Part shown: positions 11,001-39,030 of the stretch, in pieces
Position numbering within the stretch: the first letter of the stretch is position 1
Layout of the letters: each line of letters begins with the position of its first letter
DNA from: Filimonas sp.
Lineage (GTDB): Bacteria > Bacteroidota > Bacteroidia > Chitinophagales > Chitinophagaceae
DNA length: 64,000 nucleotides
Direction: 5' to 3'
NCBI GenBank assembly: GCA_017306865.1
Contig: JAFKHH010000011.1
Coordinates: 1,054,001 to 1,118,000 of the forward strand
Made by a program: the position numbers and the translations under genes
The notes under the pieces: generated by a model
The model's input: the letters and a program-made list of their open reading frames with translations, nothing else
Told to the model about the DNA's origin: nothing
The model's database searches: none

Positions 11001-14000
11001 TAACAGGCTTGGTCGGTGACAATACTTACAAATTCCTCTATACGATAGATGACGGTACTGGTTGTGCGCCTACAATAGATAGTACGATCATTGTAAACAG
11101 GCCGGATATTACTACGCCGGATGCGGGCCGCGATACAACGATCTGTGATATGACGGCAACGGCCAACAATATCCTGATCCTGCGTGCAAATGCTATCACG
11201 CGCAGCTTTGAAACTGCCACGTGGAAGTTGGTCAGCCAGCCGGCTGGTAGTAATGGCGTGTTTAGTAGCCTTGCAGACCCTAATGCAACATTCTCTTTTG
11301 ATAAGCCTGGTACATATAAGCTGGTTTGGCAAATAAGCAACGATGCAGGTTGTACACCAAAGACAGATACTGTAACTATTAAAGTATATGTGAAACCTGT
11401 AGCTGGCGCTGTAATATTGGGCCAGACAAATGTGTGCGCAGGCACTGACGTTACTTTCACTTCTCCATCCTATACCGGAACGATCCTGAAATGGCAATAC
11501 AAAACCGTGCCGCTGAATAATAATAGCTGGATAGATACCTTGGTGACCGGGCCTGCTATTACTTTCCGCAATGTGCAGGATACGTTTGCCGTGAGAACAT
11601 GGGTAGTATCGGCAGGTGCAGCAGACGGTTGTGGCACGGTAGATACTTCCGGCCCCGTAGTATTGAATGTGGCACCGCAAACACAGATAGGACATATTAC
11701 ACCGGATACATCCGTATGTAAAAATGCGAATACAGGCATAGTGTCTATAAAAGATCATGTAGGGAATATTGTGCGTTGGGAGTTTTCAATAGACAATGGG
11801 TCTAACTGGATCCCGATCAATACGAATAATACGTCTATTACCTATAACAACCTTACACAAACAACATGGTATCGCGCTATTGTTCAGAGTGGCGTTTGCC
11901 CACCACTGCCATCACAGGTAAGTATTGTTACTACGCGTGATGGTGTAACGGTGGCAAATGCCGGCGGCGACCAGGCTTTATGTAACACTACTACAGCATC
12001 GCTGCTTGCGAATGTACCTGCGCTGAATGAAACAGGTTTGTGGTCGCAGGTAACCGGGCCGAATACGGCACTTACATCTGCACTGAACAACAATGCACTT
12101 AATCTTGCCGGTTTAGTGCCGGGTATTTATACTTTTAAATGGACTATCTCCAACAGTGTTTGCCCTTCTACTTCAGCTACGGTAAATATTGTGAATTACC
12201 CGCCACTGACAAACACGATGAATACCGATACGATCAAAATATGTAAAGGACAGTCAGTATCATTAAGTGGTGATGTGCCTACAGGCGGTAATGGCGTGTA
12301 TGTGTACCAGTGGCAGTTTAGCAAAGACAACATTGTATGGAATGATATAATAGGTGCCACCAATCCTAACCTGGTATTTATACCTGATACAGTTGTACTG
12401 ATAAGAAGAGTGGTAACAGCAGGAAGCTGCCAGGTCTTTGGCCCGCCAGTGGTGGTAAAAGTGCAGACAAGCATTATTAATAACAACATCAGCGCAAGCC
12501 AGTCTATTTGTATCAATACTGCTCCGGCAACAATTGTGGGTAGTGCACCTACAGGTGGTGATGGCTTTTACACGTATATATGGGAGCAAAGTACCGATGG
12601 TCTTGTATGGACGCTGATCAACGGCGCTACAGGTAAGGATTATAATCCTGGTGTGATGGCTAGTACAATGGCATATAGAAGAACGGTAACTACATTGTTA
12701 TGTGCAGGGCAGCAGGCAAGCATAAGCGCTCCTGTAGTGATTACGGTAAACCCTGATGCTATAGCGCAATTTACGGCAGTGAAAACCATTGCCTGTGCGC
12801 CATTCAATATTAACAGCCTGAACATTCAGCCAACATTGTACCCGGATAAAAATGGTACGTACAACTGGATCGTAAACGGAACTGTTATTGGTACTACGCC
12901 TGCATTCCCGGGCTATACCATCAACAAACAGTTTGATTCTGTAACAGTACAATTGCTGGTACACAGCAAGTTTGGTTGTAAGAGCGATAGCATGCAATTG
13001 AAGTTCTATACATTCCCTGTACCATTGCCTTCCTTTACTGTAGATAATACGGAAGGGTGTGGCCCATTGACAGTGAACGTAAAAAATACTTCGCAGAATA
13101 AAGCATTGTTTACTTATACCTGGAACTTTGGTAACGGGCAAACAAGTACTGCAGAGAATCCTCCGGCTATTACCTTCCCGCCGTCTCCTTTGTATGTAGA
13201 TACGATCTATCATATTACCTTATCAGCAAGTTCGGATTGCGACACGGCTGTGTTTGATGTGCCGGTTCGCGTGAAATCGAAACCGAAGGCTTTGTTCTCT
13301 CCGGGCAGGGCAACAGGTTGCTCGCCGTTTACCGTTACGTTCACTAACAATTCGCTGGGCAACAACGTTACCTACAATTGGGATTTTGGTGATGGCACTA
13401 CGCAGACAACAACGAGTACAGGGCAGGTGCAACATACATTCATTACAGCACAGCCAAAAACATTTACCGTGCAACTGGTTGCTACAAATGAGTGTGGCAA
13501 TGATACACTGAAGTATGACCTGGTCGTATCTCCTAATACAGTAAAAGTAGATCTTGCTGTAAATGGCAGCGAGGTGAGCGGTTGCGGGCCGCATACCGTG
13601 CATTTCATTAACAATACAAGTGGAGGCAGTTCCTTCAGGTGGGATTTTGGTGACGGTAATATTCTTAATACCACCAAGAATATAGATACGGTTACACACA
13701 CCTTCATCCAGCCGGGTGACTATAAAGTAGTATTGCTGGCTTCTAATGGCTGCTCTGATACTACAGACTTTGAAATGATCCACGTGTTCAAAACGCCGCG
13801 TGTAGATTTCAGCGCTGTACCATATACGGTTTGTATTGGTGATTCTATCCGTTTCAAAAATGAAAGCGATGCACTTACAGGCACGCTTTGGAAGTTTGGA
13901 GACGGTAGCACAACAGCGCTTACAAACCCGGCGCACTATTACAATGCAGCAGGGACATATAATGTTACACTGATCGGTTCTATCCAGTATAGCACAGGTA

Positions 14001-16027: not shown

Positions 16028-16190
16028 TGAGTTGTGAGTGGTCAGTAGTGAGAGATCATTACTGCATTGCTTAATTGTTGCATTGTTATATTGTTCTTTT
16101 AGCCCTGGTTCGTGAAGACACGAACCAGGGCAACGAAAAACAGTTAAACAATGTAACAATTGGGCTCACTACTGACCACTCACAACTCAC
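16027..16190. repeat. Nested 164-bp palindrome
   Basis: A perfect 26-bp outer inverted repeat (16027-16052 and 16165-16190; GTGAGTTGTGAGTGG and complement) encloses a second imperfect pair (AATTGTTGCATTGTTA and TAACAATGTAACAATT-like) and a central hairpin with a 13-bp perfect stem, GCCCTGGTTCGTG, and an AAGA loop (16102-16131). The outer arm begins at the last base of the PKD stop codon. It could reduce read-through into the PorP/SprF gene or protect the upstream mRNA end; it lacks a T-run. Confidence 0.85.
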
Positions 16191-16245
16191 AATCCGACCC
16201 CCTGAAACAGAACCAATTTTTGTGCTGTTGGAAAAAAACACATGT

Positions 16246-17271
16246 ATGCAAAAACTAATTGTTTTGATGTTAATGGGAGTACTTGGTGCCATGCAGTTGC
16301 GTGCGCAGGATCTTACCTTTTCACAATTCTATGAAAAGCCACTGCTGCGCAATCCCGCACTTGCCGGGGTGTTTGATGGTGATATCCGCATCAGCGGCAT
16401 CTATCGCAATCAGTGGCAAAGTGTAACAGTGCCATACCAGACAGGTGCTATGAGTGTGGAAGTGAAATTCCCTTTGCCTCAGTGGGAAGACTGGATCACA
16501 GTTGGGCTGCAAGCCACGCATGATGTGGCCGGGGATATAAAGCTGAAGCGTACACAATTATTGCCTGTAGTGAACTACCACAAATCGCTAAGTGGTAACG
16601 CAGACGATTATTTGTCTCTCGCTTTTATGGCAGGGCCGGTAAACAGCCAGTTCGATCCTACATTGCTGAAGATGGATGACCAGTTTCAAAACGGATCATT
16701 CAACCCGAATGCACCTACGCAACAGGTCTTTGACCGCACAGGATTTAGCTATTGGGATGCATCGGCAGGTGTAACATATAGCAGTGGTTTTGGTGAGAAC
16801 AGCCGCTTCTATATAGGTGGTGCGTTGTTTCATTTTAATAAACCCAAAGTTGCTTTTTATACAAGCAATTCAAATGTCATACTCAATCATAAACTGGTTT
16901 TTAATGCAGGTGCAACCATTCCTACATCAGACATAAACAGGATACAGGCGTATGCAGATTATTTCATACAAGGAGGCAACAGGCAGTTTCTTGGCGGCCT
17001 GTTGTATGGCATGGACTTAGCACAGAACTATGATGATGAAAAAGCATTCAGTCTTTACCTCGGTGGTTTGTTCCGCTGGAACGACGCCATCATTCCTGTT
17101 GTAAAAATGGATTTTTACGACCTCTCTGTAGGTATAAGTTATGATGTGAATTTGTCTAAACTAAAAACAGCATCACAAATGCGAGGCGGATTTGAGATCA
17201 CTGCATCTTATAAAGCCAAGTTTACCGGACGCTCATTAGAAGCAAGCAAAGTAAGATGTGTGTGGTTCTAG
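16246..17271 (+). CDS. PorP/SprF family type IX secretion protein
   Basis: From the ATG at 16246 the product has 341 residues, with a signal peptide ending LRAQ followed by DLTFSQFYEKPLLRNPAL and YRNQWQS, the hallmark start of PorP/SprF proteins. The rest is an outer-membrane beta-barrel. These proteins work with the type IX machinery; members encoded beside a type B cargo are thought to attach that cargo at the surface. Longer in-frame readings start inside the palindromic repeat and lack a signal peptide at their N-terminus, so I reject them. The gene is 218 bp from the PKD gene and probably shares its expression. Confidence 0.93.
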   Translation: MQKLIVLMLMGVLGAMQLRAQDLTFSQFYEKPLLRNPALAGVFDGDIRISGIYRNQWQSVTVPYQTGAMSVEVKFPLPQWEDWITVGLQATHDVAGDIKLKRTQLLPVVNYHKSLSGNADDYLSLAFMAGPVNSQFDPTLLKMDDQFQNGSFNPNAPTQQVFDRTGFSYWDASAGVTYSSGFGENSRFYIGGALFHFNKPKVAFYTSNSNVILNHKLVFNAGATIPTSDINRIQAYADYFIQGGNRQFLGGLLYGMDLAQNYDDEKAFSLYLGGLFRWNDAIIPVVKMDFYDLSVGISYDVNLSKLKTASQMRGGFEITASYKAKFTGRSLEASKVRCVWF

Positions 17272-17488
17272 CGATTTGAGATTTGATATTTGTGATTTGA
17301 GATTGTTTACCGCGGAGACCGGGGAGTGGCGCGGAGAAATTATGTATTACTAGTACAAGAATGCAGTTTCTTTATTTCCGCGTTTTCTGTGTTTTCCGCG
17401 AGAGATATCGCAAAGAGCTAGCTATAAGAAACAGGTAATGAAAATAATGTGCCTCATCTCAAATCTCAAATTTGAAATTTCAAATCCA
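17272..17488. repeat. Nested repeat: family D arms around family E
   Basis: Starting one base after the PorP/SprF stop, GATTTGAGATTTGATATTTG (17273-17292) faces CTCAAATCTCAAATTTG at about 17455-17488. Between them GGAGTGGCGCGGAGAAAT and TTTCCGCG phrases form a second inverted set of the kind seen at 911-1215. The block ends at the 3' end of the next, convergent gene. Confidence 0.65.
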
Positions 17489-22021: not shown

Positions 22022-22873
22022 CTAATTTTTATGCTGTTTCCGGAAGTCAGAAGGTGAGGCGCTTGTTGCTTTTTTAAAAGTATTACTGAAATAAGCTGCA
22101 TCTTCAAAACCTAATTCGTAGGCTATTTCTTTAGCTGACTTATCCGTATAGATCAGGAGCCGTTTTGCCTCTAGTAGTATCCGGTCCTGGATAATAGTAA
22201 GCGGCGACTTATTGTTATATAGTGCAAAGAGATTCGTCAATGTCTTTGGAGACCGGTTGAGTTGCTCCGCATAAAAACTGACGCGGTGTGCTGTTTTATA
22301 ATTGTTCTCCACCAGCATGTTAAACGCTCTTATTACATCCAGCTTAGTGTCTGTACTCACTTGTGCAGGCAGGAATTGTTCTTTAGCGAGACGTGTTACC
22401 AGTATGATCAGGCGTTTTAGCAACATGCGCAGCATATCTTCCTGTATATTATCTACAGTATCATATTCCTCCTTGAAAATTTCAAACAGCAAGTCCAGCT
22501 TGTGCGTATCCCTGTCGCCTAATTGCGTAAACATTGTTTGTTGTGCACCATAGAATAAAAAACCTGCACAGCTTACCTCTTTATCATGATCTACGATGCA
22601 GTAGAACTCCCGGTTAAACTGCCACGCAACTATTGCATCTGAGTCAGCCGCGAAGTGAAAACTCTGGTTAACCATAAGAGAAAGGATCGTATTACCCGGG
22701 AATGTGTGTTGTATGCCATCTATCAGTACGTCTGTTGCTGCGCCCCTGTTCCTTGCAATTGTCAGGAATTTATCTTTCCTGTCTTTGCCATAAAAAGTTC
22801 TGTCCAGCGCCTCCTCTTCTGCGGTCAGCCTGCATTCTCCTTTTGTTGTTTTATTTCGATAGATCAGTTTCAT
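22022..22873 (-). CDS. AraC family regulator, paralogue 1
   Basis: From the ATG at 22873 the product has 283 residues. The N-terminal cupin-like domain contains FYCIVDHDKEVSC (Cys92 and Cys102), and the C-terminal AraC domain has KEIAYELGFEDAAYFSNTFKK. It is a clear paralogue of the regulator at 25797-26639, which keeps both cysteines at the same spacing. The reading from 22924 adds 17 residues with no similarity to the paralogue, so I reject it. It is divergent from the spondin lipoprotein gene and just upstream of the AhpD-like gene, both plausible targets. Confidence 0.9.
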   Translation of the reverse strand: MKLIYRNKTTKGECRLTAEEEALDRTFYGKDRKDKFLTIARNRGAATDVLIDGIQHTFPGNTILSLMVNQSFHFAADSDAIVAWQFNREFYCIVDHDKEVSCAGFLFYGAQQTMFTQLGDRDTHKLDLLFEIFKEEYDTVDNIQEDMLRMLLKRLIILVTRLAKEQFLPAQVSTDTKLDVIRAFNMLVENNYKTAHRVSFYAEQLNRSPKTLTNLFALYNNKSPLTIIQDRILLEAKRLLIYTDKSAKEIAYELGFEDAAYFSNTFKKATSASPSDFRKQHKN

Positions 22874-23216
22874 TGTTTTGCATAAAGGTGTAAAAATACT
22901 ATTTGGGAAGAATCTAACCACCAATCATCACCCGGCTATTCCATGAAGGAACATAAGGAAAAGCGCTCGTGTACTTTGTGCAACTTTCGTGGGCTTTGAG
23001 GTTAGATTAATGACATTACTTACGATAACCGTGACGTAAGAAACGGCAAAACCTTACAACGATTTCAGAATTTAACATGCAATTTTTCCCGTTTTGTTAA
23101 AAGGGTTTTACGGGCAATATGGTCAATCTTTCGGGCAATAACGGCATCACGTTCGCCCATTCCACCTGCTACTTTCGCTGCGGATATCCAATACGAATTG
23201 ATAAAAAACTTTTACC
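22874..23216. promoter_or_regulatory. Divergent promoter gap
   Basis: A 343-bp gap between the divergent AraC-type gene and the spondin lipoprotein gene. I see no gene and none of the dispersed repeat families. A TACTTTCG near-match to the -7 consensus is at 23170-23177 but lacks a well-placed -33 box. Operators for the AraC protein are likely here. Confidence 0.4.
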
Positions 23217-25796: not shown

Positions 25797-26639
25797 ATGA
25801 TAAAAGAATACGCAGAGAAAACGACAACAGGCAGGTTTGTTATGCACTTGTATAACGAACAGTTAAGCGGTAAAGGCCTGCGTCTCATTGGACAATTACC
25901 TGTCAATACCTTTGTGTTCAATAAAGGAGAAGCACAACAGGTAGTAATAGATGAAGTAAGTTATACAATGCCTGCATCTTCCATCTTGCCACTAGTGTCC
26001 AATCAGCATTTTGTTTTTGAGCGTCCCGGTGACCTGGTTGCATGGCAGTTTAACCGTGACTTTTATTGTATAGTAGATCATGATAAGGAAGTGGGCTGTG
26101 TGGGCTTTTTGTTTTATGGCATCCGGCATCCCATGTTCATACAGTTGTCCGGTGACGAATGTGCAGCTTTACTGCATTTGCAGGAATTGTTTTTATCCGA
26201 ATGGAAATATGCAGATAATTTCCAGGGCGAGATGCTGCGCATCCTGTTGAAGCGGTTGATCATCCAGACCACGCGTATTGCAAAGTTGCAATGTGAGCAT
26301 TATTCAAAATTCCCTGAGGATAAAATGGATCTCATCAGGCAATTCTCTCTACTGCTCGAAGCAAATTTTAGAAAGGAGCATGAAGTCCGATTTTACGCGG
26401 CGGCATTGAATAAATCACCGAAAACACTGACTAATATTTTTGCTTTGCTGCAACAGTCTTCGCCATCCAAGTTGATCCAGCAACGTATAGTGCAGGAAGC
26501 CATGCGTTATGCCTATTATACGCAAAAGTCGGCTAAGGAAATAGCGTATGAGTTAGGCTTTGAAAGCCCGGCTCATTTTAGCCGTTTTGTCAAGCAACAT
26601 TCAGGTAAAAATATTTCTGATCTCAGGAAAAAAGACTGA
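25797..26639 (+). CDS. AraC family regulator, paralogue 2
   Basis: The 280-residue protein has the cupin-like sensor part with FYCIVDHDKEVGC (Cys91, Cys101), the shared segment NKSPKTLTNIFAL, and the AraC HTH KEIAYELGFESPAHFSRF. It is the paralogue of the regulator at 22022-22873. It lies 107 bp after the thioredoxin gene in the same direction, so it may be an autoregulator of this island. A hairpin terminator follows. Confidence 0.9.
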   Translation: MIKEYAEKTTTGRFVMHLYNEQLSGKGLRLIGQLPVNTFVFNKGEAQQVVIDEVSYTMPASSILPLVSNQHFVFERPGDLVAWQFNRDFYCIVDHDKEVGCVGFLFYGIRHPMFIQLSGDECAALLHLQELFLSEWKYADNFQGEMLRILLKRLIIQTTRIAKLQCEHYSKFPEDKMDLIRQFSLLLEANFRKEHEVRFYAAALNKSPKTLTNIFALLQQSSPSKLIQQRIVQEAMRYAYYTQKSAKEIAYELGFESPAHFSRFVKQHSGKNISDLRKKD

Positions 26640-28827: not shown

Positions 28828-30477
28828 ATGTTCCAATCTATTTCAACGTGCTGCATACGGTTCATCTGTTTTTTATTGGTCGCTATAGGCGGTGTACAAC
28901 CGGTGCAGTCACAAGAGAAAGACTTTGCAGAGTTACAATACGCAAAACGCCTGAGTAAGCAGTTCCCGGATTCCGCCTTTTTATTACTAAAAGAAGTCTA
29001 CACCCGTTCGCTGGAGAAGAAAGATAAGTTGGCAACAGCAACCTGTTTGCAGCAAATGGGGCAGATATCTTATTACCTGGGTAACTATCCGCAGGCGCTG
29101 GACTTTCATTTACAGGCAGATAAGATCTTTCGCGAAGAAAATAGCCTTGTAAACATTGCGGCTAACCTCAACGACATGGGCATATTATATTATTATAATA
29201 AGCAGCTTGGCTTAGCGCGAAAACAATATGATGAGGCACTACAAATATATCAGCGGATTCACAATGGCGAGGGTACTGCAGATACATATGGCAGGATCGG
29301 GCATTTATATGAGAAACGCCAGCAATATGACAGCGCCTTTTATTATCAACGCATGGCGCTGAGCCAGTACAATAGTATTTCCCAGAAGCAGGGTATGGCA
29401 AAGATCTATGAGAACATGGGAAGCATTTATGAAGACCTGGAACGGTATGACTCTGCACAATCCTATTTCTCCCGCTCACTCGCGCTGTACAACGAAGCGC
29501 ATGAAGGCATAGCAAGTATAGAAGTACTAAACAACCTGGGTGATATTTATCGTAAAACAGGAAAATATGCGGAGGCGCTGGTACAAACGCGGCAGGCACT
29601 TAGCGAGTCGCTTAAAGTAAATGACCTCTACCAGATAGGGGCAGCCTATCGCGACCTGGGTAAAACATATCATCTCTTAAAGCAATATGACAGTGCTTAC
29701 TATTACCTGGAATTGTCACGAAGAAATACGATAGACATTTATTCCAAAGAAAACAATCGACAGACTGCCTTTCTGAATGTATTATATGATATAGGAAAAA
29801 AGAATGCGGAGATCATCAGCCTCGGCAACCAGCAAAAGATTAACCGTGTAGTTACTATTGCAACCATAGTTGTAATAGCCCTGTTTATCGTGCTTGGCTG
29901 GGTAACCTTCAGCCGCCAGAAGTTAAAGATCAGGAATGAGCAGATGGAAGCAGCACAAACGCGCCGTCTGTATGAAACGCAGAAAGAGATAATGGAGCTG
30001 GAAATTAAAAACAAAGCCATACAGGAAACCAAGCTGATGGAGGAACTGGATACCCGCAGCAAAGAGTTGAGTAAACATACGCTTCATATTATACAAAAAA
30101 ATAAACTGGTAGATGACCTGCGGGAACGACTTGAGGTAATGGTGAAGGATGACAAGCGCGATCAAAAACGCCAGTTGCAACAGTTGATCCACCAGATAAA
30201 CCTGAGTGCAAACCAGGAACAACACTGGAGTGAGTTCAGGGAAATATTCGAACAAGTGCACCAGCAGTTCTTCGACAAACTGAAAGAATATTGCAACGAA
30301 CTTACCGGCAACGATATGCGCCTGGTTGCTTTGATAAAACTAAATATGGCTTCTAAAGATATGGCAACACTGTTGGGCATATCGATGGATAGCTTGCGGG
30401 TGGCACGCTACAGGTTGCGTAAAAAGATAAATCTTACTGAAGGCGAAAGCCTTACTTCGTTTATACAGTCGATATAG
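28828..30477 (+). CDS. TPR membrane regulator with LuxR-type HTH
   Basis: From the ATG at 28828 the product has 549 residues: signal peptide, about six tetratricopeptide repeats to residue about 310 (with recurring GxIYxxxxxYDSA motifs), one membrane segment near 340-360 (VVTIATIVVIALFIVLGWV), a coiled coil, and a C-terminal HTH (LVALIKLNMASKDMATLLGIS, RVARYRLRKKINL). This one-component design places the TPRs in the periplasm and the DNA-binding part inside. It lies directly upstream of a TonB receptor gene in the same direction and is the likely regulator of that locus. A longer TTG start is unlikely. Confidence 0.85.
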   Translation: MFQSISTCCIRFICFLLVAIGGVQPVQSQEKDFAELQYAKRLSKQFPDSAFLLLKEVYTRSLEKKDKLATATCLQQMGQISYYLGNYPQALDFHLQADKIFREENSLVNIAANLNDMGILYYYNKQLGLARKQYDEALQIYQRIHNGEGTADTYGRIGHLYEKRQQYDSAFYYQRMALSQYNSISQKQGMAKIYENMGSIYEDLERYDSAQSYFSRSLALYNEAHEGIASIEVLNNLGDIYRKTGKYAEALVQTRQALSESLKVNDLYQIGAAYRDLGKTYHLLKQYDSAYYYLELSRRNTIDIYSKENNRQTAFLNVLYDIGKKNAEIISLGNQQKINRVVTIATIVVIALFIVLGWVTFSRQKLKIRNEQMEAAQTRRLYETQKEIMELEIKNKAIQETKLMEELDTRSKELSKHTLHIIQKNKLVDDLRERLEVMVKDDKRDQKRQLQQLIHQINLSANQEQHWSEFREIFEQVHQQFFDKLKEYCNELTGNDMRLVALIKLNMASKDMATLLGISMDSLRVARYRLRKKINLTEGESLTSFIQSI

Positions 30478-30504
30478 AAAATACATTTTTCTAATGTGTT
30501 GTTC

Positions 30505-30640
30505 ACGGTAACAATTTGTTAATGGCGTTTTATGTTCTTTTAAAATAGTTGATAGTGAGTGAGTTAATGTGTGCTTGTTTACGCTGTCGCCGGTTTGTTA
30601 ACGGTGCCTGTAACGATGTTACCGTTTTGTTTACGGTGCT
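30505..30640. promoter_or_regulatory. Repeated GTTAACGGTG-type motifs, possible operators
   Basis: In the gap before the TonB receptor gene I see several related words in both orientations: TTCACGGTAAC, TTGTTAACGGTG, GTAACGATGTTACCG and TTGTTTACGGTG. They may be binding sites for the TPR regulator encoded just upstream. The assignment is by pattern only. Confidence 0.35.
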
Positions 30641-30730
30641 TTTTTCTGCTTTGATAGATGGTTTTACACTTTTGCGTCCACAACGATGAACATTTAAAAA
30701 ATGCAAAACGTAAAACCTTACCATCCAGCT

Positions 30731-33499
30731 ATGAAAAAATTATGCTGCATGTTTTTACTCCTGGCCCTCGGCGCGCTTCCTGCTTTTTCGCAGGCCGTAA
30801 TGAAAGGGCAGGTAGTGGATAAACAATCAGGAGAACCCTTACAAGGAGCTTTAGTACAAGTAACCTTAAAAGAAGGAAAAAAAGCCGTGGCTTTAACCGG
30901 GCTCAACGGACAATTCGTATTCAGAAACGTATCATCTGCCAGCCACAAAGTAACTGTTACGTATGTAGGTTATGAAACAACCGCAACCGAACTGACTCCG
31001 GGAACAGAACTTAGTATTACACTTGACAGAACGAAGAATGATCTGCAAAACGTAACGGTATCCGGTAAAACAGACCGTGGCGGAGAAAAATATACCATGC
31101 AGATCGATCGCAAAGCGGACATTGTGCAAAACTCCGTTTCTGCACGTGCGATTGAGATTTCACCAGACTTAACAGTAGCAAACGTAACACAGCGTGTTTC
31201 CGGTGTATCGCTGGAGCGCAGTACAAATGGCGAAGGGCAATACCCGATCATCCGCGGTATGGACAAGCGCTACATTTACACATTGGTAAATGGCATTAAA
31301 ATACCTAGCCCGGACAATAAGAACCGTTACGTGCCATTAGATATCTTTCCTTCTGACTTGATGGACAGGATTGAGGTATCAAAAGCGTTGCTGCCAAACA
31401 TGGAGGGCGATGCAATAGGTGGTGCGGTGAATATGGTGATGAAAGATGCGCCAGCTACCTTTTCCGTAAAAGCAAATGCGGCAGTAGGGTTTGCCAACAA
31501 ATTCTTTACAGAAGATTTTACACGTTTCAATAATGGCCCAAGCCTCAACAGCTCTCCAAGACAATTGAATGGTAGTGCTTACCAGGCGGGGATGCAGGAT
31601 TTTCCAAACAGTGCTTTCACTTATATACCTAAGCACAATCCTTTAGCATCTGTTCTTGGCCTATCCATCGGCAACCGCTTCCTGCACGATAAACTGGGAG
31701 TATTGGTTGCAGGTAGTTATCAAAATACTTACCGCAATGTAAATACTGTTTTCTTCGACAGCGAAACGGACCGGAATACAAACAATGCCGTTGTTACTTC
31801 TATTGAGCAAAGGCATTATTCTATTCAGCAGCAAAGAACAGGTTTGCATAGCAAGCTGGACTACAAGTTTGATAACAATAATAAGCTGAACCTGTACGTA
31901 GCTTACATGAACCTGGAAAAGAATGAATACAGGAGTGTGTCTGATACAAGCCTTGAACTGGGACGCCAGGGGCCTGGCACAGGTCGTATTTCTAATAGCT
32001 ACAGAACAATACATGATGTACAGCAGATCTTCAATGCTACGTTGAATGGTGAGCATAGTCTTACTAAACGCTTGTCACTAAACTGGTCGGCCGTTTACTC
32101 AAAAGCAACAGACAATAACCCGGATGTAGCCAAGCTAAATGTAGTGACTGGTGTAGCGAAAGACCCGGTTACGGGCAACCTGGTACAAGCACCGCACAAC
32201 CTTGACGCATCATCTTCAAGACAGTTTTTTCATAATTCAGATGAAGACAAAAGCGGTTATCTCAATTTGAAATACCGTACCGGTTTTGGTAAGTCTAAAT
32301 GGGAATGGTCAGTAGGTGGTATGTATCGCGATAAAAGTAGAAGCAGTACGTACGACAATTACAACCTGCGTCCAACCAACCCAAGCATACAAACGTATGA
32401 CGGAGATATTTCTAAAAACAACTTCTACGTGTTTAACCCTGCAGGAACATTTGATGATGCATTGAACTATGATGCAAAGGAAAAGATTGCAGCAGGTTAT
32501 GCTATGTTGAAAGTAGAATGGAAAAAGCTGGACATCACTGGCGGTGCGAGGTATGAGCATACAGACCTTACGTGGATAAATGCAACATCTACAGCCGTAA
32601 AAGGAAAAACGGGTTCTATTAACTATTACGATGTGTTGCCAAGTGTGTCTGCAAAATATGCATTGTCTAAAAGACAGGCGTTGCGTTTTTCTTACTATTC
32701 AGCCATCAGCCGTCCTAACTTCTACGACATTGTTCCGCACATAGGCGGCGATAATGATGCTGACTGGAAGGAGTCTGGCAATCCTAATCTGAAACGTACG
32801 ACAGCAGAAAATTTTGATCTTCGTTATGAATTATTCCCGCACGATCTGGACCAGTTACTGGCAGGTGTGTTCTATAAAAGACTGAACAACCCGATAGAGT
32901 ATGCATTGGAAAATGTAGGAACGAATGTGTATTATATACCGGACAATTTCGGTAACGCAAGTAACTATGGTTTTGAATTGGATTTTGTAAAATTCTTCCG
33001 CTGGTTTGGTGTTAAAGCAAACTACACATTTACCAACTCTGAGATTACAACAACTAAGGTAAGACGCTTCAGCACACCTACAGGACAAAGCAGTGAACTG
33101 GTAAGTCAGACACGTCCGCTACAAGGCCAGTCTAAGCACATTGGTAACATCTCTGTGTTTGTAAAAGATGATAACAAATTAGGGTTGAATGCACAGTTGG
33201 CACTGGGTTACACCAGCCGCAGGATCAACACCGTATCTCAATACCTGGATAATGATATATGGCAGAAGGGCTTTGCTCAATTGGATTTCTCTGTAGAGAA
33301 AAGAGTAGTGAAACACTGGTATGTGTATGCAAAGGTGAATAACCTGCTGAACACACCTGCAGAGCTGGAGATAAGACAACCTTATACGGGAGCAGCCGTG
33401 GTAGGAGATGTGCCTTACCAGGAAAAAGGCAAGAATGTGTTTATACGTAAAGACACGTATGGTATGAACTTTTTACTTGGTGTGAGATTTAAATTATAA
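30731..33499 (+). CDS. TonB-dependent receptor without SusD partner
   Basis: From the ATG at 30731 the product has 922 residues: signal peptide (ending PAFSQ), a carboxypeptidase-regulatory-like domain (about 22-105, MKGQVVDKQSGEPLQGA), a plug (VTQRVSGVSLERS, PIIRGMDKRY, GDAIGGAVNM), and a 22-strand-type barrel ending GVRFKL. It is not a classical SusC: no SusD gene follows; instead a beta-helix lipoprotein gene starts 21 bp after its stop, and then a MINPP-like phosphatase gene. Substrate is unknown; the neighbours suggest a phosphorylated organic compound. Confidence 0.9.
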   Translation: MKKLCCMFLLLALGALPAFSQAVMKGQVVDKQSGEPLQGALVQVTLKEGKKAVALTGLNGQFVFRNVSSASHKVTVTYVGYETTATELTPGTELSITLDRTKNDLQNVTVSGKTDRGGEKYTMQIDRKADIVQNSVSARAIEISPDLTVANVTQRVSGVSLERSTNGEGQYPIIRGMDKRYIYTLVNGIKIPSPDNKNRYVPLDIFPSDLMDRIEVSKALLPNMEGDAIGGAVNMVMKDAPATFSVKANAAVGFANKFFTEDFTRFNNGPSLNSSPRQLNGSAYQAGMQDFPNSAFTYIPKHNPLASVLGLSIGNRFLHDKLGVLVAGSYQNTYRNVNTVFFDSETDRNTNNAVVTSIEQRHYSIQQQRTGLHSKLDYKFDNNNKLNLYVAYMNLEKNEYRSVSDTSLELGRQGPGTGRISNSYRTIHDVQQIFNATLNGEHSLTKRLSLNWSAVYSKATDNNPDVAKLNVVTGVAKDPVTGNLVQAPHNLDASSSRQFFHNSDEDKSGYLNLKYRTGFGKSKWEWSVGGMYRDKSRSSTYDNYNLRPTNPSIQTYDGDISKNNFYVFNPAGTFDDALNYDAKEKIAAGYAMLKVEWKKLDITGGARYEHTDLTWINATSTAVKGKTGSINYYDVLPSVSAKYALSKRQALRFSYYSAISRPNFYDIVPHIGGDNDADWKESGNPNLKRTTAENFDLRYELFPHDLDQLLAGVFYKRLNNPIEYALENVGTNVYYIPDNFGNASNYGFELDFVKFFRWFGVKANYTFTNSEITTTKVRRFSTPTGQSSELVSQTRPLQGQSKHIGNISVFVKDDNKLGLNAQLALGYTSRRINTVSQYLDNDIWQKGFAQLDFSVEKRVVKHWYVYAKVNNLLNTPAELEIRQPYTGAAVVGDVPYQEKGKNVFIRKDTYGMNFLLGVRFKL

Positions 33500-33520
33500 A
33501 CGCAACACAAACTTATTACA

Positions 33521-34891
33521 ATGAAAACATTACATACTTTATCCTATTCAGCTCTGCTGGCTACTGCATTAGCATGTTTTACTTCTTGTCACAAAGACGA
33601 ATCTGTAGATGTGTCTAAAGCATTGATCTCTGCCGGGCAGGCCATCACCAGCGATACACTTACAGGATCAGTAAAAGGTACATTGATTACTGGCAAGACT
33701 TATTATTTTAAAACAGATATTACCATCAACCAGGGTGATACTTTGTTGATGCAACCGGGGTCTAAACTAATTGCTATCGGCGATGGTTCTGCGGCAGCTA
33801 GCCCGCAGATCACCTGCAATGGTAACTTCATAAGCCTGGGTACAGAAGACAATCACAACTTCATTACCGTACTGCCGGAAAAACGTACTACGGATAATAT
33901 TGGTAAAGGTTTCTGGGGTGGTATCCAGGCGGGTGCTACCAGCGGTGACATGATCATTAAGTGGACGCATATAGAATTTGCCGGCGGCCCTGCAGGGCAG
34001 TCTGCTGATCCTGCGGTATATGCAGCAGGTGATCCACGCTACTCACTCGTGTACACTAACATCAATGGCAATTTTATACTGGAAGATTCCTGGATCTATG
34101 GCAGCACGGATGATGGCTTACGTGTGCTGCACGGCCGCATCAGCATTATGCGCAACACGTTTGAGGCTTGTGGTAAAGCAGGTGGTGAGTCAGTGAATTT
34201 AAAGAATGGTACAGTAGGCGATGTGGCTTACAATCTTTCTATAGGCGCTGCAACAAATGGTTTCAAAGTGTCTAACAGTGGCGATGGTCCGGTGCAGACA
34301 AATGTGTATGTGTACAACAATACCATTATCAATAATGGCGAAAGACAAGTGAAGTCGGGTAGAGGTGGTTCTATTAACTACGAGAAAGGCGCACAGGGCA
34401 AAGTGTATAACAATATGATCGTAAACTGCCGTTTTGGATTGCGCGTTACGCAGGATGCGGATACCAACCATATTGCGTACAATAACCAGTTTTACTATGC
34501 GAATGATCCGCGTTTTACTGCGCAGTTCAATGCTTCTGATGGTATAGCAAGAGCACAAAGCGGAGATGTACGTAGCGCCGAGCCTAAGGTAAATAATCCG
34601 CAGTTTGCAACGTACGATGTAAACCAGTTTGACTTTACAAAAGCAACTATCCCGATGGATATAAAAGCTATGCCGCTTGCTATTATTACGGCCATGAGTT
34701 ATGATTTCAGCTTGTTGCCAGGTTCGCCGGCTTTGAAAAAAGGAAATGCGGATGCGTTTGCACCAATGGCGAAAGTGCCGCAAGGTGGTCTGTATGGCGC
34801 TACAGAAAAAGGGCCGGGTGTAGATATGGGCGCATACCAGTCAGACGGTAGCGGAAACAAACATAACAACACGAGCTTGTCTTTTAAATAG
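33521..34891 (+). CDS. Right-handed beta-helix lipoprotein
   Basis: The 456-residue protein has a lipoprotein signal (FTSC, Cys23, then HKDES). The body has short repeating turns with asparagine ladders (VYVYNNTIINNGE, VYNNMIVNCRFGLRV, HIAYNNQFYY), typical of parallel beta-helix proteins. In place and spacing it takes the position that SusD has after SusC, so it may be the substrate-binding lid or an exposed binding protein for the receptor. Pectate-lyase-like catalytic residues are not evident. The nearest annotated relatives are likely to be hypothetical proteins. Confidence 0.8.
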   Translation: MKTLHTLSYSALLATALACFTSCHKDESVDVSKALISAGQAITSDTLTGSVKGTLITGKTYYFKTDITINQGDTLLMQPGSKLIAIGDGSAAASPQITCNGNFISLGTEDNHNFITVLPEKRTTDNIGKGFWGGIQAGATSGDMIIKWTHIEFAGGPAGQSADPAVYAAGDPRYSLVYTNINGNFILEDSWIYGSTDDGLRVLHGRISIMRNTFEACGKAGGESVNLKNGTVGDVAYNLSIGAATNGFKVSNSGDGPVQTNVYVYNNTIINNGERQVKSGRGGSINYEKGAQGKVYNNMIVNCRFGLRVTQDADTNHIAYNNQFYYANDPRFTAQFNASDGIARAQSGDVRSAEPKVNNPQFATYDVNQFDFTKATIPMDIKAMPLAIITAMSYDFSLLPGSPALKKGNADAFAPMAKVPQGGLYGATEKGPGVDMGAYQSDGSGNKHNNTSLSFK

Positions 34892-34902
34892 TCAATTGAA
34901 TT

Positions 34903-34952
34903 AACCACCAGCATACACAATAGACGCTTATCGTCCTTGTGTATGCTGCGTG
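34903..34952 (+). other. Long stem-loop between lipoprotein and phosphatase genes
   Basis: ACCACCAGCATACACAA pairs with TTGTGTATGCTGCGTGGT with one bulge or mismatch, and the inner part GACG-CTTAT-CGTC adds a tip. There is no strong T-run, so it may be a partial terminator or an mRNA-processing stem that separates expression of the two genes. Confidence 0.6.
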
Positions 34953-34980
34953 GTTGTAATTATAATACTGGCATTACTGT

Positions 34981-36351
34981 ATGTATTTAAACAAAATCAT
35001 TTTTGGACTGGTACTGTCTGCGACAACAATTGCTGTTACGGCACAGGAGAGAAGCCTCTTAGGTACAAAAGCAACTTATCTCTACACACCGGCTGGTGTA
35101 ATGCCGCCACCTGCAGGTTATGCGCCTGTTTTTGTGAATCATGTAGGCAGGCATGGATCCCGCTTTATGACAAAGGCGGGAGCAGATGTGGCAGTGCTTT
35201 ATTGGCTGGAGTATGCAGCAAAGAAAGATGGCCTTACAAATACTGGTAAGGAGTTGCTGAATATGACCCGGCGCTTTCTCTCGATAGAAAAAGGTAATTA
35301 CGAAAATATTACCCTGCTTGGCGCAAAAGAACAGGCGGCTATCGGGGCACGCGTTAAAACAATGTATGCAACTGCATTTAAAGGGAATGGGGTAGATGTT
35401 GTAACTACCTTCAAAGTACGCACGCAGCAAAGCGCTAATGCCTTTATGCAGCCGTTTAAAGATTATAAAGGGACAACGCATTTTACTGTTACAAAAGAAA
35501 CAGAAGATGAGATGTTGCGCTTTTATGACCTTGCACCTGCGTATGAGGCATACACGGCAAGCGCAGCCGTAAAGCAATCGCTGGACTCACTGGAAAAAGA
35601 TAAACGCAATAGCGTAGCTGCAGCACAGGTATTTTCAAAAATATTTACCGGGCAGGTCGCAACGGCACTTGCTGCAGGCAAAGAAGAAGCTGAAGTGAAT
35701 AAGAAGAAAATTGTTTTTTCTCCCGTTGCGTTTGCAGATAACCTGTATGACTTGTATAGCATCTCCGGTTCCTTTTCTGAAGAGATGAAGCGCAACAATA
35801 TACCGGCAGATAGTATTAATTTCTCTATTGCTTTTAGTAAAACTTCTTTGCAATGGTTTGCGTTTAAGAACGGCGCCTCAGATTTTATAGAAAAAGGGCC
35901 TGCGCATGATACATTTGGTGTGCAGGTAAAAATAGCTGCACCTTTGTTGGTTTCTTTTATTAAAACAACGGATAGCATAGTGTCGCATAGAGTGCAGAAA
36001 GATGCTGTTCTGCGTTTTACACATGCAGAAGCTATTTCTCCCTTTGCTACTTTACTCGGCATAAGAAAAGCCAGCCAGCCTGCGTCTTCTATATTTGATT
36101 ACAACAAACAATGGCACCCGGAAGAGATCATTCCATTAAGTGCCAACATTCAATGGATCTTGTACACTAACGGGAAAGAGTACCTGGTAAAAATATTGTT
36201 GAATGAAAAACCAGAAACCATCCCGGTGGTTACAAATACATTCCCTTATTATAAGTGGGCCGATGTACGTGCCTATTATGCAGGACAACTGGCTAAAACC
36301 GGGCTTGCTATCAATGGTGATACACGCCAATTTCTGCAAGCCGTGAAATAA
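34981..36351 (+). CDS. Histidine-type phosphatase, MINPP/phytase-like
   Basis: The 456-residue protein has a signal peptide (ending VTAQ), the catalytic RHGSR motif (Arg57, His58) and, late in the chain, HAE (His348-Ala349-Glu350). In the histidine acid phosphatase superfamily, HD is typical of acid phosphatases and AppA-type phytases, whereas HAE is typical of multiple inositol polyphosphate phosphatases, including characterised Bacteroides enzymes. I therefore read it as a periplasmic or outer-membrane-associated inositol-phosphate phosphatase. Its position behind a TonB receptor and a beta-helix lipoprotein suggests that the imported compound is dephosphorylated. Confidence 0.87.
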   Translation: MYLNKIIFGLVLSATTIAVTAQERSLLGTKATYLYTPAGVMPPPAGYAPVFVNHVGRHGSRFMTKAGADVAVLYWLEYAAKKDGLTNTGKELLNMTRRFLSIEKGNYENITLLGAKEQAAIGARVKTMYATAFKGNGVDVVTTFKVRTQQSANAFMQPFKDYKGTTHFTVTKETEDEMLRFYDLAPAYEAYTASAAVKQSLDSLEKDKRNSVAAAQVFSKIFTGQVATALAAGKEEAEVNKKKIVFSPVAFADNLYDLYSISGSFSEEMKRNNIPADSINFSIAFSKTSLQWFAFKNGASDFIEKGPAHDTFGVQVKIAAPLLVSFIKTTDSIVSHRVQKDAVLRFTHAEAISPFATLLGIRKASQPASSIFDYNKQWHPEEIIPLSANIQWILYTNGKEYLVKILLNEKPETIPVVTNTFPYYKWADVRAYYAGQLAKTGLAINGDTRQFLQAVK

Positions 36352-36656: not shown

Positions 36657-38120
36657 ATGAACTACTACCTGGGTATAGATATTGGTACTTCTTTTACAAA
36701 AGCTGTTGCTTTCGACGCAGAAGGTGGCATTGTTGCATCCCTTTCTGCCGGTTATACGATACAGCATCCGCAGCCAAGGTATAGCGAGCAAGATCCTGTA
36801 GCTATTCTCGATGCTGTTATTACGCTTATAAATGCGGTTACGAATGAATTGGGCACACCTGCATTCATCTCTTTCAGTGCAGCCATGCACAGCCTCATAT
36901 TAATAGATAAAGAGGGCGCGCCGCTAACGCAGTGCATTATATGGGCAGATAACAGGGCTGTGAACGAGGCCGCACAACTACGGGAAAGCGAGCGTGCTTC
37001 GGCCTTTTACCAACAGACGGGTGTACCAATACATCCCATGTCTCCTCTTTGTAAGCTGCTATGGTTTAGAGAGAATGAACCGGGACTCTTTCAAAGTGCG
37101 TACAAATTCATCGGTATAAAAGAGTTTGTATTTTATCATCTCACAGGTCAGTACGTCATTGACAGCTCCTGTGCATCCGCTACCGGTTTGTTTGATATAC
37201 ATACCTTACAATGGAGTAATGACGTACTGCAATATGCGGGTATAGCCAAAGAAAGATTGGCTACAATAGTTCCGGCTACACATGTAATTCCATTCCCTGC
37301 GCAAAACAATAGGGTGCTATTGCAAAAAGATGTGTCCTTAGTATTGGGCGCAAGCGATGGTGCGCTTGCTAACGTAGGCTCGGGTGCTACAGCGTCGCAT
37401 ATAATGGCAGTAAGTATTGGAACCAGTAACGCTGCACGTGTGATGGTAAATGCTCCTGTTACAGATGTGCAGATGCGCACCTTTTGTTATCACGTAAAGG
37501 GCAGCCAATATATTGCCGGTGGCGCCAGTAACAATGGTGCTGTCGTATTGCAGTGGTTAAAGGAATCTATTTTGAATACAAGGGAAAGCTATGAGACGCT
37601 GTTTGATGAAGCGGCGAATGTGCCGGCTGGTAGCGACGGATTATTGTTTTTGCCCTATATCCTTGGCGAGCGTGCGCCTATCTGGAACGCACATGCAAAA
37701 GGCGTATTTATGGGGGTGGGTATTCAGCATACACATGCGCATCTGCTGCGTGCTGCTATGGAGGGAGTGATCAGTGTATCTTACAGCATAGGTAAAATAT
37801 TGGCAGAGAAAAAGGAGATAACAGAAATACATGCTTCCGGTGGTTTTACCAAAACGCCGTTGTGGGTGCAGATGCTGGCAGATATGTTTGACAGGAAGGT
37901 GATTGTGTCTGAGAATGGTGAAAGCGCCGCTTTAGGCGCTGTGATAGTTGGTGCGGAAGCATTGGCATTACCCTTTATGAACAAACAAGTTGCCGGAGAA
38001 GTGTATGTGCCGGTAAAAGAGCAGCATGTAGCTGCATTACAGAGATTTCAAGCGTTTGAACGCCTATATACTTTGCTGAAAAATGAATTTAATTCTACAT
38101 TGCCTGCTTCAACTGAATAA
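36657..38120 (+). CDS. gntK: FGGY family kinase, probable gluconokinase
   Basis: The 487-residue protein begins with GIDIGTSFTK (ATP-binding Asp8-x-Gly10-Thr11). GVPIHPMSPLCKLLW is characteristic of FGGY gluconokinases, and GGASNNGAVVLQW and ASGGFTKTPLWVQMLADMF support the family. It would make 6-phosphogluconate from gluconate in the cytoplasm. The gene that follows by one base codes for a gluconolactonase-like protein, which strengthens gluconate over xylulose as substrate. The GntK designation is used here in the FGGY (not the small GntK/IdnK) sense. Confidence 0.85.
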   Translation: MNYYLGIDIGTSFTKAVAFDAEGGIVASLSAGYTIQHPQPRYSEQDPVAILDAVITLINAVTNELGTPAFISFSAAMHSLILIDKEGAPLTQCIIWADNRAVNEAAQLRESERASAFYQQTGVPIHPMSPLCKLLWFRENEPGLFQSAYKFIGIKEFVFYHLTGQYVIDSSCASATGLFDIHTLQWSNDVLQYAGIAKERLATIVPATHVIPFPAQNNRVLLQKDVSLVLGASDGALANVGSGATASHIMAVSIGTSNAARVMVNAPVTDVQMRTFCYHVKGSQYIAGGASNNGAVVLQWLKESILNTRESYETLFDEAANVPAGSDGLLFLPYILGERAPIWNAHAKGVFMGVGIQHTHAHLLRAAMEGVISVSYSIGKILAEKKEITEIHASGGFTKTPLWVQMLADMFDRKVIVSENGESAALGAVIVGAEALALPFMNKQVAGEVYVPVKEQHVAALQRFQAFERLYTLLKNEFNSTLPASTE

Positions 38121-38121
38121 T

Positions 38122-39030
38122 ATGATGCAGGTAAAGCGCTCTAAATATCTTCTGATTGTTGTTGCTTTTTTCTTGTCTCACTCACTCTTTGCGCAATGGG
38201 ATAGCGCAGGGCTAGTAACGTCGGGTGCAAAGCCGGTGCTGATCTCCAGGCAGTTTACTTTTACAGAAGGTCCCGCGCCGGATAAAAAGGGGAATATCTA
38301 CTTCACAGATCAGCCGAATAACCAGATATGGAAATACGATACAGAAGGTAAGTTGTCTTTATTCATGGACAGCGCCGGGCGATCAAACGGTTTGTATATT
38401 GATAAGAAAGGAAACATTATAGCATGTGCAGATGCAAAGAATGAACTGTGGTCTATCTCGCCCAATAAGGAAGTAAAAGTATTGGTCAATAATTATGAAG
38501 GCCATTTGCTAAATGGCCCTAATGACTTGTGGATAGACAGGAAGGGTGGTATTTATTTTACAGATCCTTACTACCAGCGTAAATACTGGACAAGGCAGGC
38601 TACGGAACTGGATGGTATGAAAGTGTATTACCTCGCACCTAAAGCGAGGGTTCCTGTTATTGTAGTCAGTACTATGAGTAAGCCGAATGGCATAGTAGGA
38701 ACTAAAGATGGTAAGACATTGTATGTGGCAGATATAAAAGAAGGCGTGATCAATCGCTTTGCGATTCATAAAGATGGTAGCCTTTCGGAGAAGGAATTGT
38801 TTGTACCGCAAGGTGCGGATGGCATTACGCTGGATGCAAAGGGCAATCTTTATTTGTGTGGAAATGGTGTTACGGTGTATAATAATGAGGGGAGGAAAAT
38901 TGCGCATATAGATATACCGGAAAAGTGGACAGCCAATGCCTGCTTCGGCGGAAAGAACCGCAATATTTTATTTATGACTGCTTCCACAACTGTTTATACG
39001 TTGGAGATGAATGTGAAGGGGATTGAGTGA
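38122..39030 (+). CDS. Exported SMP-30/gluconolactonase-like protein
   Basis: The start ATG at 38122 is one base after the stop of the kinase gene, so the two are translationally coupled. The 302-residue product has a signal peptide (ending SLFAQ) and a six-bladed propeller with the family metal ligands in FTEGPAPD (Glu), NGPNDLW (Asn) and GADGITLD (Asp). SMP-30/gluconolactonase proteins open sugar lactones. Together with the kinase this gives lactone to gluconate (outside the cytoplasm) to 6-phosphogluconate. A gluconate importer is not seen in the window. Confidence 0.9.
   Translation: MMQVKRSKYLLIVVAFFLSHSLFAQWDSAGLVTSGAKPVLISRQFTFTEGPAPDKKGNIYFTDQPNNQIWKYDTEGKLSLFMDSAGRSNGLYIDKKGNIIACADAKNELWSISPNKEVKVLVNNYEGHLLNGPNDLWIDRKGGIYFTDPYYQRKYWTRQATELDGMKVYYLAPKARVPVIVVSTMSKPNGIVGTKDGKTLYVADIKEGVINRFAIHKDGSLSEKELFVPQGADGITLDAKGNLYLCGNGVTVYNNEGRKIAHIDIPEKWTANACFGGKNRNILFMTASTTVYTLEMNVKGIE

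Follow-up and report, generated by a model that had tools for sequence, protein, structure and literature searches.

Which nutrient does the four-gene module at positions 28828–36351 of a 64,000-nt stretch of Filimonas sp. DNA take up, and what makes it a unit? This whole stretch is called the window, and all coordinates below are positions in it unless a locus is named. An earlier note, made from the letters of the window, had described a regulator, a TonB-dependent receptor without SusD, a beta-helix lipoprotein and a phosphatase, and had proposed a candidate inositol-phosphate system. The open frame calls and a Pfam search of the window agree with this description, the four frames being present on the forward strand: REG, the one-component regulator (28828–30477), TBDT, the TonB-dependent receptor (30701–33499), BHLX, a lipoprotein predicted to be a right-handed beta-helix (33521–34891), and a histidine phosphatase of the multiple inositol polyphosphate phosphatase (MINPP) type (34981–36351). 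Our results indicate that these genes probably form a module dedicated to the scavenging of phytate (inositol polyphosphate). The wider label of inositol-phosphate system very likely applies to it, because relatives keep the gene order, the phosphatase matches MINPPs, REG and its candidate operator are shared with loci encoding beta-propeller phytases, and inositol-catabolism genes follow the module of one relative (L011).

The phosphatase is the sole PF00328 match of its genome (E 7.5e-12). It carries both motifs that had been noticed, RHGSR at residues 57–61 (35149–35163) and HAE at residues 348–350 (36022–36030). The HAE tripeptide, for which a proton-donor role is described, along with the meaning of the motifs, in the available text of two studies (PMC3969271; PMC9432691), is invariant in all 16 aligned homologues. 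When solved structures are searched with phmmer, 14 sequences are matched at E ≤0.1, the best being BtMINPP (4fdt/4fdu, E 1.5e-39); by their titles, 11 of them are multiple inositol polyphosphate phosphatases and three are histidine acid phosphatases (7r5y, 6rxd, 6rxf), and no AppA or PhyA title occurs among the 14. Furthermore, R180 of the window protein, in LRFYDL, aligns with R183 of BtMINPP and is invariant in the homologue alignment, an equivalence that we read from the alignment, the numbering being shifted by one. At the places taken as corresponding to the PMAAN and LYNE motifs, the window protein has PLSAN and LLNE. The phosphatase is of the MINPP type, with the hydrolysis of inositol polyphosphates as its predicted function. 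A periplasmic location would fit both BtMINPP (PMC3969271) and the signal peptide, which comes without a lipobox in 23 of 25 MINPPs (rough regular expression, near-duplicates kept).

Is the phosphatase a stable member of the module? In a named genome collection, 21 loci were collected via BHLX, and the receptor adjoins BHLX in every one of them. The order REG-TBDT-BHLX-MINPP, on one strand, is found in eight (L003–L010), REG being divergent in a ninth (L002), and TBDT-BHLX-MINPP in 14 of the 21, with MINPP-TBDT-BHLX in one more (L011). MINPP is absent from six loci, one of them a 3.1-kb fragment; L019 and L020 have REG with another enzyme. The four genes that the earlier note had grouped thus show a conserved synteny. 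One of the whole modules, that of L009, lies on a contig filed as Nostoc sp. PA-18-2419, which probably comes from an associated Chitinophagaceae-like bacterium.

A larger sample was obtained from genomes of the family and of the class. A BHLX profile matches at 72 places in 48 of the 195 family genomes, and at 39 places in 33 of the 395 class genomes; as 5 of the latter places were known from the family draw, the class adds 34. The analysis covers every family place and 29 of these 34. Together with the window and the 21 loci of the named collection, they provide 122 BHLX genes, of which 119 remain once three near-duplicates (≥97% identity) are dropped. A receptor gene is adjacent on the same strand in 116 of these 119 loci. 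A phytase lies within 6 kb in 43 (23 MINPP, 20 beta-propeller), a count in which one enzyme serves both members of tandem pairs, two of the 23 MINPP entries (L013_1 and L018_1) being such second pairs. With Pfam matches of representatives used to name the neighbour families, a phosphatase-type neighbour is seen in 88 loci, or in 77 when a weakly identified endonuclease/exonuclease/phosphatase-like (EEP-like) group is left out, this label being a sub-threshold match (PF03372, 16.3 bits vs 24.5). In the family draw, MINPP lies within 6 kb of BHLX in eight of the ten genomes that encode MINPP, so the proximity of the two is not due to chance. A phytase stands beside BHLX in 11 of the 34 family genomes with beta-propeller phytase, and 19 phytase-BHLX pairs are observed vs about 0.04 expected by chance (our own arithmetic). 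In a quick tree of the 119 BHLX rows, the window belongs to a starred clade whose 16 rows are without exception MINPP-linked, and the MINPP label needs six changes over the whole tree, one being the tandem second pairs. A MINPP-receptor-beta-helix module is also seen in another family of the class (L141, G330:C1), and the association is therefore not confined to the family of the window.

The regulator gives a second line of evidence. REG is read as a signal peptide, a tetratricopeptide repeat (TPR) domain predicted to be periplasmic, a membrane helix at about residues 345–365, a coiled coil and a C-terminal helix-turn-helix (HTH) domain, the TPR part being found by Pfam and the topology and HTH being read from the sequence. 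When REG is called present at a profile score >400, a phytase is found in 31 of the 32 BHLX loci with REG (12 MINPP, 19 PF02333 beta-propeller) and in 12 of the 87 without it; the sole phytase-less locus with REG, L124, has a PhoD-like phosphatase. As these loci had been gathered through BHLX, the 195 family genomes were also searched with REG alone, which gives 27 matches at E ≤1e-100 in 25 genomes. A phytase lies within about 5 kb of 24 of the 27 (4 MINPP, 20 beta-propeller), at a cut-off that favours phytase-linked regulators since the profile was trained on those. In a quick tree of 38 REGs, from which three near-copies were left out, the enzyme label needs four changes, and the beta-propeller locus L114 falls, at an unsure exact place, in a starred set with ten MINPP loci. 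By regular expression, 29 of the 40 linked beta-propeller phytases look like lipoproteins.

The lipoprotein appears to be exchanged as well. Of the genomes with beta-propeller phytase, 23 have no BHLX nearby; 20 of their loci were fetched and read, and a 21st was fetched separately; REG is present in 8 of the 20. In four loci, a lipoprotein-like gene encoding 342–364 residues lies between receptor and phytase (L148:7765–8796, L153:7633–8658, L158:7532–8557 and L151:1662–2756). These four genes look alike by eye, the two that were scanned have no Pfam match, and REG is seen in three of the four loci, the stretch of L151 beginning inside the receptor gene. The loci compared show that the same REG, together with the same candidate operator, accompanies two unrelated phytase families that replace each other.

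This candidate operator is a double site of 50 bp (30585–30634, forward strand), made of two 18-bp copies 32 bp apart (30585–30602 and 30617–30634) of the TGTNNC-N4-TTGTNNAC type, and such a double site precedes the receptor gene in regulator-bearing loci. A strict single-copy pattern is found in 19 of 39 regions upstream in loci with REG and phytase (9 of 12 MINPP, 10 of 27 beta-propeller), vs none of 92 regions from loci without REG. A 50-bp weight matrix was then used, seeded by eye from four sequences, the positives being scored with their near-relatives left out (33 clusters, 40 regions): 36 of the 39 loci with REG and phytase (11 of 12 MINPP, 25 of 27 beta-propeller) outscore every one of the 92 REG-less regions (best 2.1 bits). 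Among these 92 regions, 23 come from phytase loci devoid of REG, so that the presence of the site is tied to the regulator rather than to the enzyme. The site of the window is the only one above 10 bits in its 64 kb. We therefore propose the 50-bp double site as a candidate operator, to which REG would bind. Another kind of repeat was seen by eye upstream of the receptor in four REG-less loci (L014, L015, L017, L022), of TTAAC/TTACC type with 11-bp spacing, a layout that we take to resemble that of PhoB-like regulator sites.

Which part could the lipoprotein play beside the receptor? By Pfam, the receptor is built as CarbopepD_reg-plug-barrel (PF13715, a carboxypeptidase-regulatory-like N-terminal domain, then PF07715 and PF00593/PF14905), and its real start is suggested to be the second ATG, at 30731, where homologues begin. 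It exceeds no NCBIfam cut-off, the closest model being TonB-Xanth-Caul (290.1 bits vs 310). In line with the first description, none of the eight genes scanned by Pfam in and around the module is of the SusD type, and none is a glycoside hydrolase. The BHLX gene, which starts 21 bp past the receptor stop, encodes a protein matching no Pfam family; two of its homologues match PF13229 (Beta_helix) below cut-off. Its AlphaFold2 model, from an alignment of 19 rows (mean predicted local distance difference test, pLDDT, 86.2; predicted template modelling score, pTM, 0.87), is a right-handed beta-helix, as had been guessed. VIA-align matches it over 243–310 residues with Z 19.8–24.6 in the 50 matches listed, which include pectate lyases, PL6 lyases, epimerases and NosD at 8–15% identity, and the best Foldseek match has E 1.8e-3, none being below 0.001. 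No match listed in these fold searches is titled as a phosphate-binding beta-helix partner, which is no evidence against one. Charged stretches behind the lipobox cysteine mark surface lipoproteins in Bacteroidota. In the window, HKDES follows this cysteine (33587–33589), and HKEES or a similar stretch often does so in relatives; a lipobox is recognised by regular expression in 106 of the 119 BHLX, and 100 of these have a lysine at one of positions +2 to +4. The beta-helix lipoprotein may act as a SusD-like lid. The remark that such a partner would be unusual does not stand, given the adjacent receptor in nearly all BHLX loci and a similar pair in print for Flavobacterium johnsoniae (PMC8115612).

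What the bacterium would gain may vary from one locus to another. In L011 (= L055), genes for myo-inositol catabolism lie on the same strand downstream of the MINPP-receptor-beta-helix genes (9324–17309 of that locus): BHLX is followed by a class II aldolase and by IolC, IolD and methylmalonate-semialdehyde dehydrogenase over their cut-offs, with IolE as a best hit and the start of IolG both below cut-off, and a 294-residue opposite-strand frame, not scanned, between the catabolism genes. In this relative, inositol is probably also burnt. The record of L011 is titled as a Williamsia metagenome-assembled genome, at odds with its Bacteroidota-type gene content. In the genome of the window, no IolD exceeds the cut-off (best 256.9 vs 715 bits), and phosphate is therefore the likelier gain there. 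As to phytate use in culture, a compost isolate near Chitinophaga arvensicola has cleared phytate plates (PMC4070677).

A mechanism can be proposed, in which ligand, transport and the location of the components are predicted from the genes. The periplasmic TPR domain of REG would sense the substrate, a breakdown product or the phosphorus state, and its cytoplasmic HTH domain would act on the double site that precedes the receptor gene. With the aid of BHLX at the cell surface, the receptor would bring inositol phosphates across the outer membrane, and the MINPP-type phosphatase would strip phosphate from them in the periplasm.

Several results weigh against this proposal. No phytase is near 76 of the 119 BHLX pairs and no phosphatase neighbour is recognised by profiles in 31, and the receptor/BHLX pair itself is therefore not phytate-specific. 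In the class-wide draw, BHLX is beside MINPP in only two of four MINPP genomes. No phytase lies near three of the 27 strong REG homologues: no phosphatase is seen among the genes listed around the REG of G029:C5, the genes after the second REG copy of G085 look, in our reading, like a di-haem peroxidase and two metallophosphoesterases, and the REG of G169 lies at a contig end. The phosphatase departs from the RHGxRxP heptapeptide, RHGSRFM having kept the catalytic RHGxR and lacking the proline; a soil MINPP phytase, with RHGSRGL, likewise has no proline there (PMC9432691). The association of site and regulator also has its exceptions. The upstream region of L124 scores below the best REG-less region, and scans of whole loci show displaced sites that are weak, with 21.5 bits between REG and the next cluster gene in L124 and 21.9 bits upstream of the phytase in L020, where it precedes the receptor; L019, L050 and L051 have no site above 10 bits in such scans. 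Chance hits of 10–18.3 bits occur in whole-locus scans of ten REG-less loci (L011 and L055 being one place). A loose pattern of the operator matches exactly once in the genome of the window, its reversed control never, and of the five matches of the pattern with 40-base length, four are in REG-phytase loci (G000, G113, G085, G161) and one elsewhere (G029:C1). Over the 195 genomes, however, it is unspecific, with 15 matches vs 44 for the reversed control by our count; as the control matches more often, this pattern is no finder and the weight matrix is the evidence. Finally, an interface between receptor and lipoprotein, which structure modelling might have revealed, is not supported so far. 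In a fused model of 1155 residues, where the receptor stop is read as serine and the barrel part is joined to the lipoprotein, each domain is predicted and their mutual arrangement is not, so that no confident interface appears (pLDDT 79.6, pTM 0.56); this model comes from a shallow alignment of 27 rows, 7 of them paired, with a plug-less barrel and single-chain weights.

Could the pair serve a general organophosphate system, importing nucleotides, sugar phosphates, phospholipid head groups and other phosphate-bearing molecules, with MINPP as one interchangeable phosphatase? BHLX pairs are also found beside purple-acid-type and calcineurin-type phosphoesterases, PF04185-type proteins and the weak EEP-like group. 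The genome of the window itself has two further receptor/BHLX pairs adjoining metallophosphoesterases, L045 (G000:C13) beside one of purple-acid type and L046 (G000:C39) beside a calcineurin-type phosphoesterase together with another gene of its cluster. Such a general role is nevertheless unlikely for the module of the window, as phytases of two unrelated families accompany REG in all but one of its BHLX loci, inositol-catabolism genes follow in L011, and the BHLX clade of the window is linked to MINPP in all its rows. It is very unlikely that phytate would be imported as a metal chelate to obtain its iron or zinc, with the release of phosphate of secondary importance. In favour of metal capture, chelated metals are the classical cargo of TonB receptors, and phytate is itself a chelator of metals. 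No recognised metal-uptake family, however, is found among the eight window genes scanned, and the enzyme neighbours across the BHLX family are mostly phosphatases; comparable Flavobacterium receptors are, in the available text, induced under phosphate depletion only (PMC8115612).

Other explanations concern the site of action of single components. BHLX could be a polygalacturonase-like enzyme or an adhesin on plant polymers, which would free or anchor phytate-rich material instead of acting as a lid, as its fold of pectate lyases, PL6 lyases and epimerases, the lack of an interface in the fused model and the role suggested for Flavobacterium lipoproteins of the same fold (PMC8115612) would allow. 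We consider it doubtful, since the identity with the 50 listed structural matches is low, a shared fold proves no function and the pairing with a receptor, in 116 of 119 loci, is typical of receptor partners. The MINPP could also work outside, in vesicles or at the surface, the receptor importing another product: BtMINPP has been found in outer membrane vesicles (PMC3969271), and the linked beta-propeller phytases are mostly lipoprotein-like. This is improbable, as MINPPs are mostly devoid of a lipobox, which makes a soluble periplasmic enzyme simpler, and as freed phosphate would need no TonB receptor. We thus retain the dedicated scavenging of phytate, with import by the receptor and dephosphorylation in the periplasm, as the probable function of the module. 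A bolder extension is put forward tentatively, as something possible: BHLX lipoproteins would be a separate and widespread class of receptor partners for phosphorylated ligands, and REG a direct inositol-phosphate sensor, a phytate-specific one-component switch with its own operator, to which evolution would have joined phytases of two unrelated families and lipoproteins of at least two kinds.

Some further features of the window and of the loci compared should be mentioned. An inverted repeat of the CGGTAACAATTTGTTAATGG type, spotted by eye, lies between REG and the double site (30500–30525, forward strand) and recurs in regulator-bearing loci. A strong RNA hairpin lies between the BHLX and phosphatase genes, on the forward strand at approximately 34900–34965; the folding energy of 34885–34985 is −34.4 kcal/mol (z −5.0 vs shuffles) and no U tract is behind it, and the hairpin could lower the expression of the phosphatase relative to that of the receptor. 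The FGGY kinase and SMP-30 genes located after the phosphatase (36657–39030) were considered as members of the module and excluded, as they have no homologue above 60 bits in L002–L022. Upstream of the module, the list of open frames shows two similar AraC-like regulators (22022–22924 and 25797–26639), which flank lipoprotein-like, peroxiredoxin-like and thioredoxin-like genes. Histidine kinase and response regulator genes are seen near the receptor/BHLX pair in L016, L057, L060, L069, L072 and L074. Such genes had first been read, in several loci, as PhoBR; this reading was dropped because both kinases checked, those of L016 and L069, belong to the PorY family over the NCBIfam cut-off.

Phytate is the main organic phosphorus store of plants and a major one in soils and plant diets, and its passage through the outer membrane of Bacteroidota has so far, in the literature as available, been inferred from gene neighbourhood only. 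Receptor, partner lipoprotein, regulator and 50-bp site of the module are each open to experimental test. REG and its operator may serve as a marker predicting the use of phytate, whatever phytase a genome carries, and the wider receptor/BHLX family suggests possible ligands for many phosphorus-scavenging receptors that lack an annotation.

How does the module compare with known systems? Like SusCD loci, it has the logic of a receptor, a surface lipoprotein, a periplasmic enzyme and a regulator; unlike them, it has neither SusD nor a glycoside hydrolase among the genes scanned, and its receptor is closest to TonB-Xanth-Caul, below cut-off. The surface lipoprotein partners of BtuB-BtuG and XusA-XusB are not known to be SusD proteins. 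These receptor/lipoprotein complexes of Bacteroides, for B12 and a xenosiderophore, respectively (PMC10404256; PMC13142918), resemble the BHLX loci by their adjacent, co-oriented lipoprotein gene; they differ by their ligands and from the putative partner in the window, a predicted beta-helix. With BtMINPP of Bacteroides thetaiotaomicron (4fdt; PMC3969271), the phosphatase shares HAE, RHG(A/S)R, the R183 equivalent and the signal peptide, whereas the last residue of its motif is not proline, and 'TonB' is never mentioned in the available text of the BtMINPP paper. A receptor is also paired with a phytase in Citromicrobium (PMC3400609) and in Fjoh_1368/1367 (PF02333 phytase), which is separate from the pectin-lyase-fold pairs of F. 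johnsoniae (PMC8115612). Phytate is the proposed substrate of both; unlike in the window, a MINPP, a beta-helix lipoprotein or a TPR/HTH regulator is not mentioned for either in the text available.

In titles and abstract openings of the open-licence papers listed by the literature searches, neither a MINPP with a TonB receptor and a beta-helix lipoprotein nor REG, its operator or the exchange of enzymes is described. What is already known is a receptor with a pectin-lyase-fold lipoprotein in phosphate starvation, and the REG-operator-phytase module with exchangeable enzymes was not found in this literature. The closest known systems are PUSIII and PUSIV of F. johnsoniae (Fjoh_3857/3856 and Fjoh_0545/0546), strongly induced by phosphate depletion, in which a TonB receptor is likewise accompanied, in a phosphorus context, by a lipoprotein said to be polygalacturonase-like (IPR011050 for Fjoh_0546; PMC8115612). 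The window has the same pair in a phosphatase context, as in a Flavobacterium-type phosphate utilisation system, Fjoh_0546 being likened to BHLX by description and not by sequence. The PUSIII and PUSIV clusters have, as listed in the available text, PhoBR or sigma/FecR-type genes and no phytase (PMC8115612), whereas in the window the pair goes with a phytase, the 50-bp double site and a one-component regulator of TPR/HTH type.

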